Assembly: GCF_900182725.1 (NCBI RefSeq)
Contig: NZ_FXTO01000003.1
Span: forward strand, 62,001 to 126,000
Direction of reading: 5' to 3'
Length of the DNA: 64,000 nucleotides
Source: Thalassovita litoralis
GTDB taxonomy: Bacteria > Pseudomonadota > Alphaproteobacteria > Rhodobacterales > Rhodobacteraceae
The first letter of the stretch is position 1, and each line of letters opens with the position of its first letter. The position numbers and the translations under genes were made by a program. The notes beneath the pieces were generated by a model, which saw only the letters and a list, made by a program, of their open reading frames with translations, was not told the DNA's origin and did not search any database. Positions 4,526-8,793 of the stretch are shown piece by piece.

Positions 4526-5932
4526 ATGACTGGCAAAATTCTGATTATTGACGGGATTACCACCAACCGGATCAGTCTACGCGTCCGGCTGTGCGCCGCA
4601 TATTACGAGGTGGCGCAGGCCGCCACGGGGGCCGAAGGGCTGGCAATGCTGGACACCGCCCGGCCCGATCTGGTGCTGATTTCATCAACCTTGCCGGATA
4701 TGAAACCGTGCGACCTGTGCCGTAGTTTGCGGCAAAACCCTGCGCAGGGCGATCTGCCGGTGATTGTTCTGGATACCGCCCCCACACGCGAACGCCGTCA
4801 TGCCGCGTTGGCCGCAGGGGCGGACGATACGCTGGACCGCCATACCGAACCCCGCCTGTTGCTGGCCCGTCTGCGCAGCCTGTTGCGCGGCGGGACCAGC
4901 CGCGAAGACCGGAACCTGCATTCCCATGCCCGTGCCTCGGTCGGGTTTGCAGAACCGACGACTGCCTTTACCCAAAAGCCCCATGTGGCGCTGATTTCCG
5001 AAGATACCGGGCGCACGCTGACCTGGGTCAAACGGCTGGAACGGCTGCGCCCGTGGCGGTTTTCACTGCATTCGCCGCGTGCGCTGTCACTGGATTTCGG
5101 GCAGGATGGCGTGCCGGATGTGATCGTAATCGCGGGCGGCTCTGGGGATGAACCCGATCTGGGGGCGGCCCTACTGGCGACATTAGGGGCGCAGCCCGGC
5201 TTTCGGCGCTGCAAGTTTTTGGTTGCCTTGCCCGACACCCGCCCCGATCCCGCCGCCCAAATGCTGGACCTTGGTGCGCATGATCTGATGACCGGCCCCT
5301 TTGACGCGGACGAGGCTGTCTTGCGTCTGGATCAGCTTTTGCGACGCAAAGCGCGGTCCGATCAACTGCATGAAACCCTTCAAAACGGTCTGCGGGCGGC
5401 CTTGATCGACCCGCTGACAGGGCTGCATAATCGCCGCTATGCCCTGCCGGAATTGGGGCGTCTGGTCGAAGAGTCAGCCAGAAACAACACCGGACTGGCC
5501 GTTATGCTGGCCGATCTGGACCATTTCAAACGGTTGAATGACAGCTATGGCCATGCCGCAGGCGACGCCGTTCTGGCCGAGGTATCCCGCCGCCTGCGCG
5601 GCGCGATGCGCCCCGGCGACCTGCTGGCCCGCTACGGTGGCGAAGAATTCCTGATCGCCTTACCTCAGCTTAGCCCATCGGAAGCCAGACAAGCCGCAGA
5701 TCGGCTGTGCCGGGCGGTGGGGGATTTGCCCCTGACGATCCCCGGCCACGCGCAACCATTGCCCGTTACCATCAGCATCGGGCTGGCCGTCATGGCCCCC
5801 CAGCCTGCAGAAATGAATACCTGCGCTCAAACCCGCATTACCGGGCTGCTATCCCGCGCGGACCGGACACTATACGGTGCCAAAGCAGACGGGCGCAATC
5901 AGGTCACGATGCTGGACCGCCCCGCAGCCTGA
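4526..5932 (+). CDS. pleD: PleD-like two-receiver diguanylate cyclase with degenerate first receiver
   Basis: A 468-residue cytoplasmic protein laid out as receiver (1-120), receiver-like domain (about 155-275) and GGEEF domain (about 300-465). The cyclase site is GGEEF at 371-375, with an intact RxxD product-inhibition site RPGD (362-365), so it should make c-di-GMP and be feedback-inhibited. The first receiver keeps Asp9, but the paired acid is Gly10. The phospho-acceptor position, Asp53 in Caulobacter PleD, reads Ser53 in LVLISSTLPDM, and the conserved Lys is replaced by Arg105. It therefore looks unable to be activated by phosphorylation in the usual way. It is divergent from DUF3572. Confidence 0.93.
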   Translation: MTGKILIIDGITTNRISLRVRLCAAYYEVAQAATGAEGLAMLDTARPDLVLISSTLPDMKPCDLCRSLRQNPAQGDLPVIVLDTAPTRERRHAALAAGADDTLDRHTEPRLLLARLRSLLRGGTSREDRNLHSHARASVGFAEPTTAFTQKPHVALISEDTGRTLTWVKRLERLRPWRFSLHSPRALSLDFGQDGVPDVIVIAGGSGDEPDLGAALLATLGAQPGFRRCKFLVALPDTRPDPAAQMLDLGAHDLMTGPFDADEAVLRLDQLLRRKARSDQLHETLQNGLRAALIDPLTGLHNRRYALPELGRLVEESARNNTGLAVMLADLDHFKRLNDSYGHAAGDAVLAEVSRRLRGAMRPGDLLARYGGEEFLIALPQLSPSEARQAADRLCRAVGDLPLTIPGHAQPLPVTISIGLAVMAPQPAEMNTCAQTRITGLLSRADRTLYGAKADGRNQVTMLDRPAA

Positions 5933-5947
5933 TCCGCCAAATACAGA

Positions 5948-5971
5948 AAACGGCCCACATCGGGGCCGTTT
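5948..5971. terminator. Bidirectional terminator hairpin between pleD and the metal-sensor gene
   Basis: AAACGGCCC and GGGCCGTTT form a 9-bp stem with a 6-base loop between two convergent genes. It ends in a short T run on the plus strand and an A/T run on the other, suiting termination from both sides. Confidence 0.6.
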
Positions 5972-6000
5972 CGCACGCCTTCAACCACCGCAAAACGGGC

Positions 6001-6525
6001 TTAGTCGCGGTCTTTTTTCCAATCCTTCTTATGATCGTCGCGGTGCTTCTTCAGCCCCTCTTCCAGCCGATCCGCGAAACCAGCCCGTTCGCTGTCACTC
6101 ATTGCGGCCAAGCGATCAATCAGCATCCGCTGCCCCAATTCCTGCCGTTCCATCCCGCCCTGCAACTGGTTCATCAAGATCGTTTCGACCTTGGCCGCGT
6201 CATAGGGCGTGGCGCGCAATGCTGCCAAAACATTGGCAAACTCGGCGCGGATTTCCTCGCGCGAGGGGCGCTGACTGCGATAGGCTTCGCGCATCTGTTT
6301 ACCAATGGCGCGGCGATCTTCGCGGCTCAGCGCGTGGGTGTATGGTCCCACCACCATATCCAACCGGGGCGGATGACGTCCGTCCTTGCCGGGCGCGAAT
6401 TTCCACGCCGCCCCCGCAATGATCCCAACCACAGCCAGATTCATCGCCAACGAAGCGAATAAAACACCTTTTAGCCAAGGGCGCATTCCCGTGCGGGTCG
6501 TTTTGGTTTCCTGCGTCTGGGTCAT
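6001..6525 (-). CDS. Periplasmic heavy-metal-sensor-like (Spy/CnrX-type) membrane-anchored protein
   Basis: A 174-residue protein. ATG 6525 is chosen because AGAGGGG lies just upstream; the longer frame overlaps the previous gene. One transmembrane segment (about residues 18-40) anchors a helical periplasmic domain with the pattern LSREDRRAIGKQMRE and repeated Arg/Glu-rich helices, ending in a His/Lys/Asp-rich tail. This fits the metal-resistance (CnrX/CzcI/Spy-like) family, which senses metals or binds unfolded protein in the periplasm. It is the last gene of a module with an ECF sigma factor, a small membrane protein and an EF-hand protein, suggesting that it feeds an envelope signal to the sigma factor. 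That role is inferred. Confidence 0.8.
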   Translation of the reverse strand: MTQTQETKTTRTGMRPWLKGVLFASLAMNLAVVGIIAGAAWKFAPGKDGRHPPRLDMVVGPYTHALSREDRRAIGKQMREAYRSQRPSREEIRAEFANVLAALRATPYDAAKVETILMNQLQGGMERQELGQRMLIDRLAAMSDSERAGFADRLEEGLKKHRDDHKKDWKKDRD

Positions 6526-6529
6526 GTCT

Positions 6530-6904
6530 TTACCCCTCTGCCATCGCAAATTCATAACTGGGCATCAGATCAACCAGATATTGATCCGTCACAGTCGTTC
6601 CTAAAAAGCTTTCCGCCGTGGTCATAATGGATGCAGGCGGGTTCACCCCGATCCACAGCCCCGCCACACCAGCAGTTGCCAACCCAGCCACCGCAGGCCA
6701 GCCGCCAATCGCCGCCAATAGCTGCCGCAACCGTGACGGCGGTCGGGGGGCCACAGTCACCGGCGCAGCCGCCGCCTGCGCGTCCAGCGCATCCGCCAGC
6801 ACCCGCGCCATGAAATCGGGCGCAGGCACGACATCTTGCGTGCGCATATCGGCGAACATAGCGTCCAGATCGAAATCTTCGGTCTTTTTGTCCATCTCAG
6901 CCAT
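6530..6904 (-). CDS. Small single-pass membrane protein, probable anti-sigma factor
   Basis: A 124-residue protein with an acidic cytoplasmic N-terminus (EDFDLDAMFADMR), one hydrophobic segment (about 66-92) and a short outer tail. Its start overlaps the 3' end of the ECF sigma gene by 8 bases, the usual arrangement for a sigma/anti-sigma pair made in fixed ratio, and its stop is 4 bases from the start of the metal-sensor-like gene. I recognise no named domain. The anti-sigma role is inferred from size, topology and translational coupling. Confidence 0.75.
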   Translation of the reverse strand: MAEMDKKTEDFDLDAMFADMRTQDVVPAPDFMARVLADALDAQAAAAPVTVAPRPPSRLRQLLAAIGGWPAVAGLATAGVAGLWIGVNPPASIMTTAESFLGTTVTDQYLVDLMPSYEFAMAEG

Positions 6905-7475
6905 CTGTATACCCCAATTCCTCGCGTCGACCGGCCAGAATGGCCGCCAGCGCCCGTTTGCCCCGTGCAGTCAGACTTTCGACCGCTTCGGTGCTGATCT
7001 CCATAATCTCGGCAATCTCGGGATTGCCCAAGCCTTCGATGTGCCGCAGCACCACCGCCTGACGCTGCCTGTCCGGCAGTTCCGCCAAGGCATCGCGCAG
7101 TGCCGCCATCCGCGCCGCATTCTGCATATCGCCTTCGACCCCGTCGCGGTCGTCTTCGGGTTCCGGAACCGAATCGATATCGACATTGCGCTGCTTCCGC
7201 AGCCGGTCCGTGCAAAGGTTGGCAACCACACGATACAGCCAGGTTGTCACCTTCGCCTCGCCCCGCCGCCAGTCGGGGGCGATTTTCCACAGCCGCAACA
7301 TGGCGTCCTGCGCCACATCCTCGGCCTCGGCCCGGTCGCCCAGCATCCGCATCGCCTGCCCGAAGGCACGCGGCGTCAATCGTATGTTCAGCGCACGCGC
7401 AGCATCCGGGTCGCCATTGGCATATAACACCAAAAGCGCATCGTCCGACACATCCGCAAAGGCATCAAAGGGCAT
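6897..7475 (-). CDS. ECF-type RNA polymerase sigma factor
   Basis: A 192-residue sigma factor of the two-domain ECF class. Region 2 includes DRAEAEDVAQDAMLRLWK and the -10-recognition helix TWLYRVVANLCTDRLRK. Region 4 includes LPDRQRQAVVLRHIEGL and the helix-turn-helix EIAEIMEISTEAVESL. ATG 7475 has AAAGGAC at proper distance; ATG 7481 is two codons upstream but only 2 bases from that site. It is flanked upstream by a secreted EF-hand gene and downstream by an overlapping membrane gene and a metal-sensor-like gene. The cognate promoter was not identified. Confidence 0.92.
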   Translation of the reverse strand: MPFDAFADVSDDALLVLYANGDPDAARALNIRLTPRAFGQAMRMLGDRAEAEDVAQDAMLRLWKIAPDWRRGEAKVTTWLYRVVANLCTDRLRKQRNVDIDSVPEPEDDRDGVEGDMQNAARMAALRDALAELPDRQRQAVVLRHIEGLGNPEIAEIMEISTEAVESLTARGKRALAAILAGRREELGYTDG

Positions 7476-7507
7476 CTTCATTGTCCTTTTGCCGTATCCT
7501 TTCGGCA

Positions 7508-7532
7508 GGTCCGGGGCAATGCCCCGAAGGAC
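7508..7532. other. GC-rich hairpin between EF-hand and sigma genes
   Basis: GGTCCGGGGC and GCCCCGAAGGACC pair around a 3-base loop with a two-base bulge. There is no T run, so it may tune read-through or mRNA stability rather than end transcription. Confidence 0.35.
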
Positions 7533-7570
7533 CGGGGCGACCTGCGCCGCCCCCGCCCAACAGTCACCGA

Positions 7571-8149
7571 TTACTGGCCGCGCTGACGCTGGCAATCGCC
7601 TTTGCCTTCACCTTTGCCCCAGCCGTGGCCATCACCACCGTGGCGCATCATGCGATCCCCATGCCCCATGCGGTCATCTTTTCCGCCCATGCGCTTTTGC
7701 ATTTTATTCTGCATCTGGGCCATTTCCTCGGCCGAGATTGCCCCGTCCTTGTCAGCATCCAGACGGTCGAACATTTTCCCCTGCTGCTTGGGCTGCATTT
7801 CCTCAAGGCTCAGCTTGCCATCGTCATTCGCATCGCGATCCACGATCATGTGCTTGGCCTGACGGGCCATACGATCCGCCATTTGCTGTTGACGCTGGGC
7901 CACGATTTCTTCGGCGCTCAGGGTGCCGTCCTTGTCAGTATCCGCCGCATCGAAGCGGGCTTTGAAATGGGCAGCGATTTCTTCTTTGGTGATCTTGCCA
8001 TCGGCGTTGGCATCCATTTCTTCAAAGTTGAACATTTCACCACGCGGGCCACCGAAATGGCCGCCCATGCGGTCCTTGCCAAATGCCAGCGCCGCGCCCC
8101 CGGTCAGGGTCAGTGCCGCAACGGTCGAGATCAGAATTGCACGTTTCAT
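7571..8149 (-). CDS. Secreted EF-hand calcium-binding protein
   Basis: A 192-residue protein with a Sec signal peptide (cleavage likely after ALA at 22) and a good GGAGAACG ribosome site. Four canonical EF-hand loops are visible, each with Asp at positions 1, 3 or 5 and Glu at 12: 46-57 (DANADGKITKEE), 70-81, 106-117 and 131-142. The tail is rich in Gly, His, Met and Asp (KDDRMGHGDRMMRHG), which could bind transition metals. It is the first gene of the ECF sigma module, 95 bases upstream of the sigma factor, so a calcium- or metal-linked envelope function is plausible. The ligand is inferred from the loops only. Confidence 0.9.
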   Translation of the reverse strand: MKRAILISTVAALTLTGGAALAFGKDRMGGHFGGPRGEMFNFEEMDANADGKITKEEIAAHFKARFDAADTDKDGTLSAEEIVAQRQQQMADRMARQAKHMIVDRDANDDGKLSLEEMQPKQQGKMFDRLDADKDGAISAEEMAQMQNKMQKRMGGKDDRMGHGDRMMRHGGDGHGWGKGEGKGDCQRQRGQ

Positions 8150-8193: not shown

Positions 8194-8219
8194 GCCCGTT
8201 TTCTGATCACTAAACGGGC
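8194..8219. promoter_or_regulatory. Inverted repeat upstream of the EF-hand gene
   Basis: GCCCGTTT and AAACGGGC flank a 10-base centre, 45 bases upstream of the EF-hand start codon. It could be an operator or a 5'-leader hairpin of the module; nothing ties it to a specific regulator. Confidence 0.3.
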
Positions 8220-8403
8220 CTGTCGTGCAGTTCCGTCGCGCCTCATCGAAAAAAATGCGCCCCATCACGCAGCCGTGACAGTGCTGTGATCGCCCCCCCT
8301 TGCATCCCGGTTTTGCGACATCGGGACGCAAGGACAATGCGCGGGCTTTTTATTCTTGATCTCCTGACGCAATTTCCCCGGTCTATGGAAACGCGAGGAA
8401 ACC

Positions 8404-8793
8404 ATGTCTGACAACGCCGTTCACGTTCACGAACGCCCCACCTGGCCGGCCATCATGACCGGATGGAAGCGCAAATGCCCCAATTGCGGCAATGGCCCTA
8501 TGCTCAAGGGCTATCTGGGTGTGCGCAAATCCTGCCCCGTCTGCAAAGAAGAATTTCACCATCACCGCGCCGACGATGGCCCGGCATATTTGACGATTTT
8601 GATCGTTGGTCACTTGATGGCCCCGCTGCTTTTGCTGGTATTTGAAACATGGCGCCCGGAACCTTTGGTTCTGTTTACCATCTTCGCTATTGGCACCGTC
8701 GCCCTGTCGCTTTACCTTCTCCCTCGGTTGAAGGGGGCAATGATCGGGTATCAGTGGGCGCATCGGATGTATGGGTTCGGCAAAGCCGATTAA
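8404..8793 (+). CDS. DUF983 family membrane protein
   Basis: A 129-residue protein with an N-terminal zinc-ribbon-like pair of Cys motifs (CPNCGNG and CPVCKEE, about residues 25-47) followed by two transmembrane segments (about 61-80 and 88-108). This is the standard layout of DUF983 proteins, whose function is unknown. It starts at ATG 8404 behind GAGGAAACC and lies 21 bases upstream of a Nudix hydrolase gene on the same strand, so the two are probably one transcript. Confidence 0.9.
   Translation: MSDNAVHVHERPTWPAIMTGWKRKCPNCGNGPMLKGYLGVRKSCPVCKEEFHHHRADDGPAYLTILIVGHLMAPLLLLVFETWRPEPLVLFTIFAIGTVALSLYLLPRLKGAMIGYQWAHRMYGFGKAD

Follow-up and report, generated by a model that had tools for sequence, protein, structure and literature searches.

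The 64,000-nucleotide window analyzed here, a stretch of the Thalassovita litoralis genome (Alphaproteobacteria; Rhodobacteraceae; contig NZ_FXTO01000003.1, positions 62,001 to 126,000), contains four minus-strand open reading frames (ORFs) at window positions 6001–8149, and all gene, promoter, and terminator coordinates below are given on the window scale. These ORFs encode, in this order, a secreted EF-hand protein, an extracytoplasmic function (ECF) sigma factor, a 124-aa membrane protein, and a membrane-anchored periplasmic protein of the PF13801 (Metal_resist) family. A preliminary description of the DNA had named a four-gene module at this place, and the module is indeed present, as attested by the four ORFs, by matches to PF13202, NF009176, and PF13801, and by the overlap between the sigma factor and membrane protein genes. 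An ECF-type promoter, GCGACGGAA-N14-CGTTT, is located at 8212–8239 (minus strand), the end of its −10 box lying 62 nt before the ATG of the EF-hand gene. The EF-hand and sigma factor genes are separated by an 89-nt gap (7482–7570, minus strand) that contains neither a terminator-like site nor a copy of the sigma motif. A simple consensus scan detected no terminator-like site on the minus strand between the four genes and an intrinsic-terminator-like hairpin behind the last one (5947–5972, minus strand). The same scan found six terminator-like sites in the region, compared with a mean of 2.7 (sd 2.0) in shuffled sequences, so that single sites of this kind are weak evidence.

The first gene (7571–8149, minus strand) encodes a 192-aa protein with a signal-peptide-like N-terminus, a PF13202 match in four stretches (76.6 bits), and four canonical 12-residue loops at residues 46, 70, 106, and 131. 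When 106 EF-hand proteins of the family are aligned, Asp at loop position 1 is retained in 103 to 106 rows, Gly at position 6 in 101 to 104, and Glu at position 12 in 98 to 105, and exactly four canonical loops are present in 87 of these proteins. No other metal site of the module is as well conserved as the calcium loops, whose positions 1, 6, and 12 are kept in 92–100% of the rows, and the protein probably binds calcium. The window protein ends in a tail of 43 residues after position 149, with 3 His and 5 Met; the His/Met richness ascribed to it earlier is therefore real in this protein but does not extend to the family, where the median tail comprises 19 residues, 2 His, and 1 Met. EF-hand_5 matches occur at two places only in the window’s own genome. 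Lanmodulins are distinguished by Pro at loop position 2. This residue is found in 0 of 407 loops, and with a score of 52.7 bits for NF053806 (cut-off 135), identity with lanmodulin was rejected; the match to XopAW (54.9 bits, cut-off 120) is a weak one of the general EF-hand type.

The sigma factor (194 aa; 6897–7481, minus strand) passes the NF009176 (PRK12524) model with 324.9 bits (cut-off 264), the second-best model being NF004113, at 205 bits, 3 below its cut-off of 208. CnrH scores 55 bits against the sigma profile, as one ECF factor among many. The next gene (6530–6904, minus strand) overlaps the sigma factor gene by 8 nt and encodes the 124-aa single-pass membrane protein that we propose to be the anti-sigma factor. 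This protein has zero Pfam or NCBIfam matches up to E = 1, known anti-sigma families included, and none of two family relatives and four anti-sigma candidates from other families exceeded a Pfam or NCBIfam cut-off; it belongs to a family that is absent from both databases. Comparison of the family with solved structures yielded one match (E = 1.1), which we judged to be due to chance. The structural model (pLDDT 74.7) shows two N-terminal helices (residues 13–22 and 29–45), a membrane helix (69–87), and a short, loosely predicted C-terminal tail, and the family retains GGWPA-(x)-AGLATA in the membrane helix and LVD..P......EG near the C-terminus. Of 120 family genomes, 90 contain a match to the protein. 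In other families, the membrane ORF is often extended at its N-terminus by a segment bearing an RWP motif; profile comparison relates these ORFs, and the Caulobacter-like ones, to those of the window’s family (hhalign 98%, E = 1.8e-13), the shared portion being the second helix and the membrane part. When the family alignment was used directly as a profile, it reached just 14 of 337 class genomes, 5 of these in the window’s own family, so the relation outside the family is a distant one. By analogy, the 124-aa protein could sequester the sigma factor: Asf6 of Azospirillum, a small protein whose gene immediately follows rpoE6, interacts with RpoE6 in a two-hybrid assay according to the available part of PMC12826043, and this binding provides a precedent for an anti-sigma step in a related gene arrangement.

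The ORF of the last gene is open from 6555; Met11, at 6525, is kept in all 109 aligned family rows, and the gene therefore probably starts there (6001–6525, minus strand). Its product matches PF13801 with 68.6 bits (gathering cut-off 29.2), and the AlphaFold2 model (pLDDT 84.1) consists of a membrane helix and a helical hook. The PF13801 profile gave weak matches to solved chains, with unrelated chains ranking above Spy- and CpxP-type ones. CnrX-type proteins are characterized by a ligand pattern of HxxxH combined with HxxxM. In a test for this pattern alone, the two elements occurred together in just 9 of 109 family rows and 0 of 131 class rows; HxxxM is absent from the window protein, whose C-terminal tail holds its single HxxxH. 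These counts bear on a reading of the module as a CnrYXH-type transition-metal sensor, in which the metal-bound PF13801 protein would release the sigma factor, the sigma factor would drive efflux, and the EF-hand protein would be a bystander target. The gene set and the PF13801 domain favor this reading, and the ligand pattern goes against it; because the pattern is lacking, we did not file the module as a member of the CnrYXH group. The earlier suggestion that a metal could set sigma release is weakened likewise, as the CnrX-like protein is mostly devoid of the CnrX-type pattern.

We compared 109 loci from the window’s family, a non-random set in which a match to the 124-aa protein served to select 29 loci (L006–L034) and a match to the sigma factor the other 80 (L035–L114); seven sigma sequences occur twice, leaving 102 distinct ones. 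Using phmmer, the EF-hand gene was detected in 105 loci, the sigma factor and the membrane protein in all 109, the PF13801 gene in 108, and all four genes in 104. Of the five incomplete loci, two (L090 and L095) are located at contig ends, in two others (L105 and L109) phmmer overlooked an upstream ORF that contains two EF loops, and in one (L065) no EF-hand ORF was found upstream. A chance or loose neighborhood of unrelated genes, in favor of which one could cite only that the 124-aa protein belongs to no known family, is contradicted by these 104 loci, by the conservation of the order across family and class, and by the single conserved promoter, and we consider it extremely improbable.

For the class-wide survey, loci were selected with NF004113 (E ≤ 1e-40), a model that matches 129 of 337 class genomes, 70 of them over its cut-off; among 14 named control genomes, Caulobacter vibrioides alone matches, with its sigma factor over the cut-off. 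The resulting set comprised 144 loci (L128–L271), including four from the window’s family, and a membrane ORF was accepted if it started within −35 to +90 nt of the sigma stop. A membrane ORF is present in 135 of the 144 loci, a PF13801-like gene in 131, both in 127, an EF-hand gene directly upstream in 66, and all four genes in 57. Without the four family loci, the respective counts are 131, 127, 123, 62, and 53 of 140. Across the class, this sigma group is thus accompanied by the pair of membrane protein and PF13801 genes. The same four-gene order, which the preliminary description had suggested searching for in other genomes, accordingly occurs in nearly all family loci and in about 4 of 10 loci outside the family. 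In 78 of the 144 loci there is no EF-hand gene directly upstream (up to six of these have an EF-like ORF elsewhere in the locus), and no common substitute was found in its place, a shared upstream neighbor being present in at most 5 of the 78. In four of the EF-less loci (L197, L242, L244, and L245), the upstream neighbors are presumably fliD and fliS, a setting that resembles the Azospirillum RpoE6 cluster. In one family, four loci (L161, L165, L168, and L174) contain a second, smaller EF-hand ORF with two loops upstream of a six-loop one that precedes the sigma factor gene.

The promoter in front of the EF-hand gene is strongly conserved in the family. GACGGAA-N14-CGT was found upstream of this gene in 94 of 101 family regions, with a spacer of 14 in all 94, and a preceding GC in 80 of the 101; the window promoter reads GCGACGGAA-CTGCACGACAGGCC-CGTTT. 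The related form [CG]CGACGGAA-N14-CGT is present in 11 of 11 Caulobacter-like and related loci (L294–L304). The strict motif stands directly before the sigma factor gene in 0 of the 66 class-wide loci with an EF-hand gene, and in two EF-less loci (L313 and L314), it stands before the sigma factor gene itself. Being first behind a sigma-type promoter, the EF-hand gene is marked as a target of the sigma factor. A search of 25 family genomes with the strict pattern GCGACGGAA-N14-CGTW gave 79 matches, compared with 22 for the reversed pattern, and the ORFs within 260 nt behind the motif were clustered to outline a candidate regulon. The largest clusters are EF-hand proteins (19 ORFs), RND-adaptor-like proteins (11 of the 25 genomes), RpoH-like proteins (5 genomes), and cytochrome b561 (4); smaller ones comprise DUF4405 (3), DUF2282 (3), ferric-reductase-like (2), and YHYH (2) proteins, followed by many single ORFs, some of which are surely chance matches. 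A further cluster of 2 ORFs is presumably DUF1800-like. One of the five RpoH-like ORFs was scanned and passes TIGR02392, and one scanned member each of the b561, DUF4405, DUF2282, ferric reductase, and YHYH clusters passes its Pfam cut-off. The window’s own genome contains four strict matches (two in the reversed control), located before the EF-hand gene and the genes for a DUF4405 protein, a ferric-reductase-like protein, and a small membrane protein. In two loci (L341 and L355), a further EF-hand-like ORF stands behind the motif elsewhere in genomes that already hold the module (L315 and L324).

A DUF2282 gene is located behind the sigma motif in three family loci, L357 (1789–2100), L363, and L370. 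In L357, the following ORF is one that we take to be DUF692-like, and the pair is likely a bufferin-type copper-chelator operon. The bufferin-type operons of Caulobacter belong to SigF, with another motif, as far as the available part of PMC3511200 describes them. Together with the RND adaptors, the three genomes with such bufferin-type genes lend some weight to the transition-metal reading; the four RND-adaptor-like ORFs that were scanned, however, pass only TIGR01730, the general model, and not the CzcB/NccB model, and with the ligand pattern so rare, we deem a CnrYXH-type metal sensor unlikely. In relatives of the window, the genes behind the motif include those for RND adaptors, RpoH, and cytochrome b561 along with others of envelope or redox function, and the most fitting interpretation of the circuit is therefore a response to envelope, metal, or redox stress with a calcium-binding arm.

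An EF-hand/ECF circuit linked to calcium was described in May 2026 for Caulobacter vibrioides (cabp-sigV, CCNA_02838-CCNA_02837; PMC13171946, available in part). There, as in the window, a Sec-type secreted EF-hand gene lies directly upstream of the ECF sigma gene, and the promoter of cabp, mapped by 5′ RACE as GGAAA-N13-CGTTCA, shares with the window motif the form GGAA-N13/14-CGT and its spacing. The sigV primer encodes HRVALN, which is also found in the sigma group of the window, and the Caulobacter-like EF-hand protein differs from that of the window in having three loops instead of four. When the primer sequence was lengthened to HRVALNLC, it matched in 11 of 298 genomes of one order, and the corresponding loci, nine from one family (L294–L302) and two from another (L303 and L304), all show the order EF-hand gene, sigma factor, membrane ORF, and PF13801 gene on one strand. 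Two of them, L298 and L299, have one mismatch each to two primers of PMC13171946 and encode a three-loop EF-hand protein (134 residues from the likely start in L298); judging from these primer matches, the family of L294–L302 would be Caulobacteraceae. In the available part of the Caulobacter report, the anti-sigma factor of SigV is shown as “?” and the two genes downstream are not mentioned. The gene right behind sigV is predicted from the shared gene order to encode the missing membrane component of the CaBP-SigV model. The module thus provides, with coordinates, candidates for the membrane anti-sigma factor and periplasmic partner behind that question mark, along with a promoter and a candidate regulon, and it makes the question of how periplasmic calcium reaches a sigma factor testable.

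The preliminary description had suggested that calcium or a metal could set sigma release and had called a calcium-linked input to an ECF sigma factor unusual. The latter holds, with the qualification that a circuit of this kind is already published for Caulobacter; the former does not stand as worded, given that in over half of the class loci, the core has no accompanying EF-hand gene. In a version with calcium as the input, the EF-hand protein, in its calcium-free or calcium-bound state, would act on the PF13801/anti-sigma pair and set sigma release, and the motif would provide positive feedback. According to the accessible text of PMC13171946, cabp is induced by EGTA, that is, by calcium depletion, in a SigV-dependent manner, and CaBP raises sigV expression; these data fit feedback from the EF-hand protein as well as input through it. 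The conservation of the calcium loops and the scarcity of CnrX-like ligands in the PF13801 protein also favor calcium as the input, whereas the 78 class loci that lack the upstream EF-hand gene and mostly keep the core, and the induction of both cabp and sigV by acid stress in Caulobacter (same source), argue against it. Calcium is a possible releasing signal; as an account of the whole module, we hold calcium input to be doubtful.

We propose instead, with a probability of about 0.6, that the module is an autoregulated, CnrYXH-like switch composed of a sigma factor, an anti-sigma factor, and a periplasmic partner, with the EF-hand protein as its first target. The 124-aa protein would hold the ECF sigma factor at the inner membrane via its two N-terminal helices, and its periplasmic tail would contact the PF13801 partner, as conserved synteny and the CnrY/CnrX pair suggest. 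An envelope signal would then free the sigma factor, which would transcribe its own operon from GCGACGGAA-N14-CGT, the motif observed at the locus. The EF-hand protein would be the first output and, by analogy with CaBP and SigV, would probably modulate the switch or protect the envelope in a manner that depends on periplasmic calcium. We consider it an output with probable feedback rather than the core sensor because its gene is first behind the promoter and is absent from more than half of the class loci; the persistence of the core in those loci also implies that it is not an obligatory sensor. These results bear out the preliminary description in its outline of a single module, here found to be conserved, in which a likely membrane anti-sigma factor and a CnrX/Spy-type partner are joined by an EF-hand protein linked to the sigma factor.

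Several observations weigh against this proposal. The class-wide loci were selected with NF004113, whose cut-off the window sigma factor misses by 3 bits, and by the criteria used, 9 of the 144 loci lack a membrane ORF and 13 lack a PF13801-like gene. Across the class, the strict motif is patchy, being found in 21 of 66 EF-containing loci and 7 of 78 EF-less loci (0 in shuffled regions), and in the window’s own genome, there is no RND adaptor among the four strict matches. Separate transcription of the genes had been named in advance as an outcome that would speak against the module, and cabp and sigV are reported in the available part of PMC13171946 to be monocistronic, with separate promoters; a scan of the window’s minus strand revealed no terminator-like site between the genes. 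The fold matches of the PF13801 model are weak as well. The top Foldseek rows are CpxP, NccX, Spy, and CnrX, none with E below 0.086, and in a second comparison, Z-scores range from 7.0 to 4.7 (CpxP 7.0, CnrX 5.1), with unrelated helical proteins interleaved. CpxP tops both lists, and it could be argued that the PF13801 protein reports misfolded envelope proteins in the manner of CpxP/Spy or RseB, the EF-hand and RND genes forming a repair regulon, a reading to which rpoH behind the motif in 5 of the 25 family genomes would be congenial. The fold scores, however, do not separate PF13801 subfamilies, and CpxP and Spy themselves are not known to be encoded in a sigma/anti-sigma operon; a protein-folding sensor appears a tentative alternative at best. 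An equally speculative extension is an ancient alphaproteobacterial circuit in which the PF13801/anti-sigma pair reads the calcium occupancy of the EF-hand protein and frees the sigma factor, resulting in more EF-hand protein and in expression of efflux and repair genes; if this were true, the gap in the CaBP-SigV loop of Caulobacter would be filled by the uncatalogued membrane protein.

Among known systems, CnrYXH of Cupriavidus metallidurans resembles the module in combining, within one operon, an ECF sigma factor, a small single-pass anti-sigma factor (a putative one here) with short cytoplasmic and periplasmic parts, and a membrane-anchored PF13801 partner, as well as in the occurrence, among relatives of the window, of RND genes preceded by the sigma motif. 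It differs in that most module members lack the CnrX-like ligand pattern, that an EF-hand gene is added as the first gene, and that the 124-aa protein has no detectable sequence match to any solved chain. EfhP of Pseudomonas aeruginosa is comparable as a bacterial EF-hand protein that, in the part of its description available, links calcium to gene expression; it is not known to be encoded with an ECF module. In Azospirillum brasilense, the RpoE8 operon consists of genes for the sigma factor, a hypothetical protein, and a “periplasmic heavy metal sensor” (PMC12826043, available in part). RpoE6-Asf6, by its published description in the same portion, is similar in that the small sigma-binding protein is encoded right behind the sigma gene, and different in its outputs, which include flagellin and metabolism. 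In the open-licence literature, no published four-gene set was found, the nearest being the EF-hand and sigma pair of PMC13171946 and the RpoE8 operon of PMC12826043, as described in the available parts of these sources.

The module is flanked by a divergent DUF983 gene (8404–8793, plus strand) and a convergent GGDEF gene (4526–5932, plus strand). Between the divergent EF-hand and DUF983 genes, there is an inverted repeat, CCTTGCGTCCCG-ATGTCGCAAAAC-CGGGATGCAAGG (8298–8333), possibly a site for a second regulator or for control of the divergent gene. The core 7-mer of the repeat, ATGTCGC, is found in 66 of 101 regions upstream of the EF-hand gene, and ATGTCGCAA in 49 of the 101.

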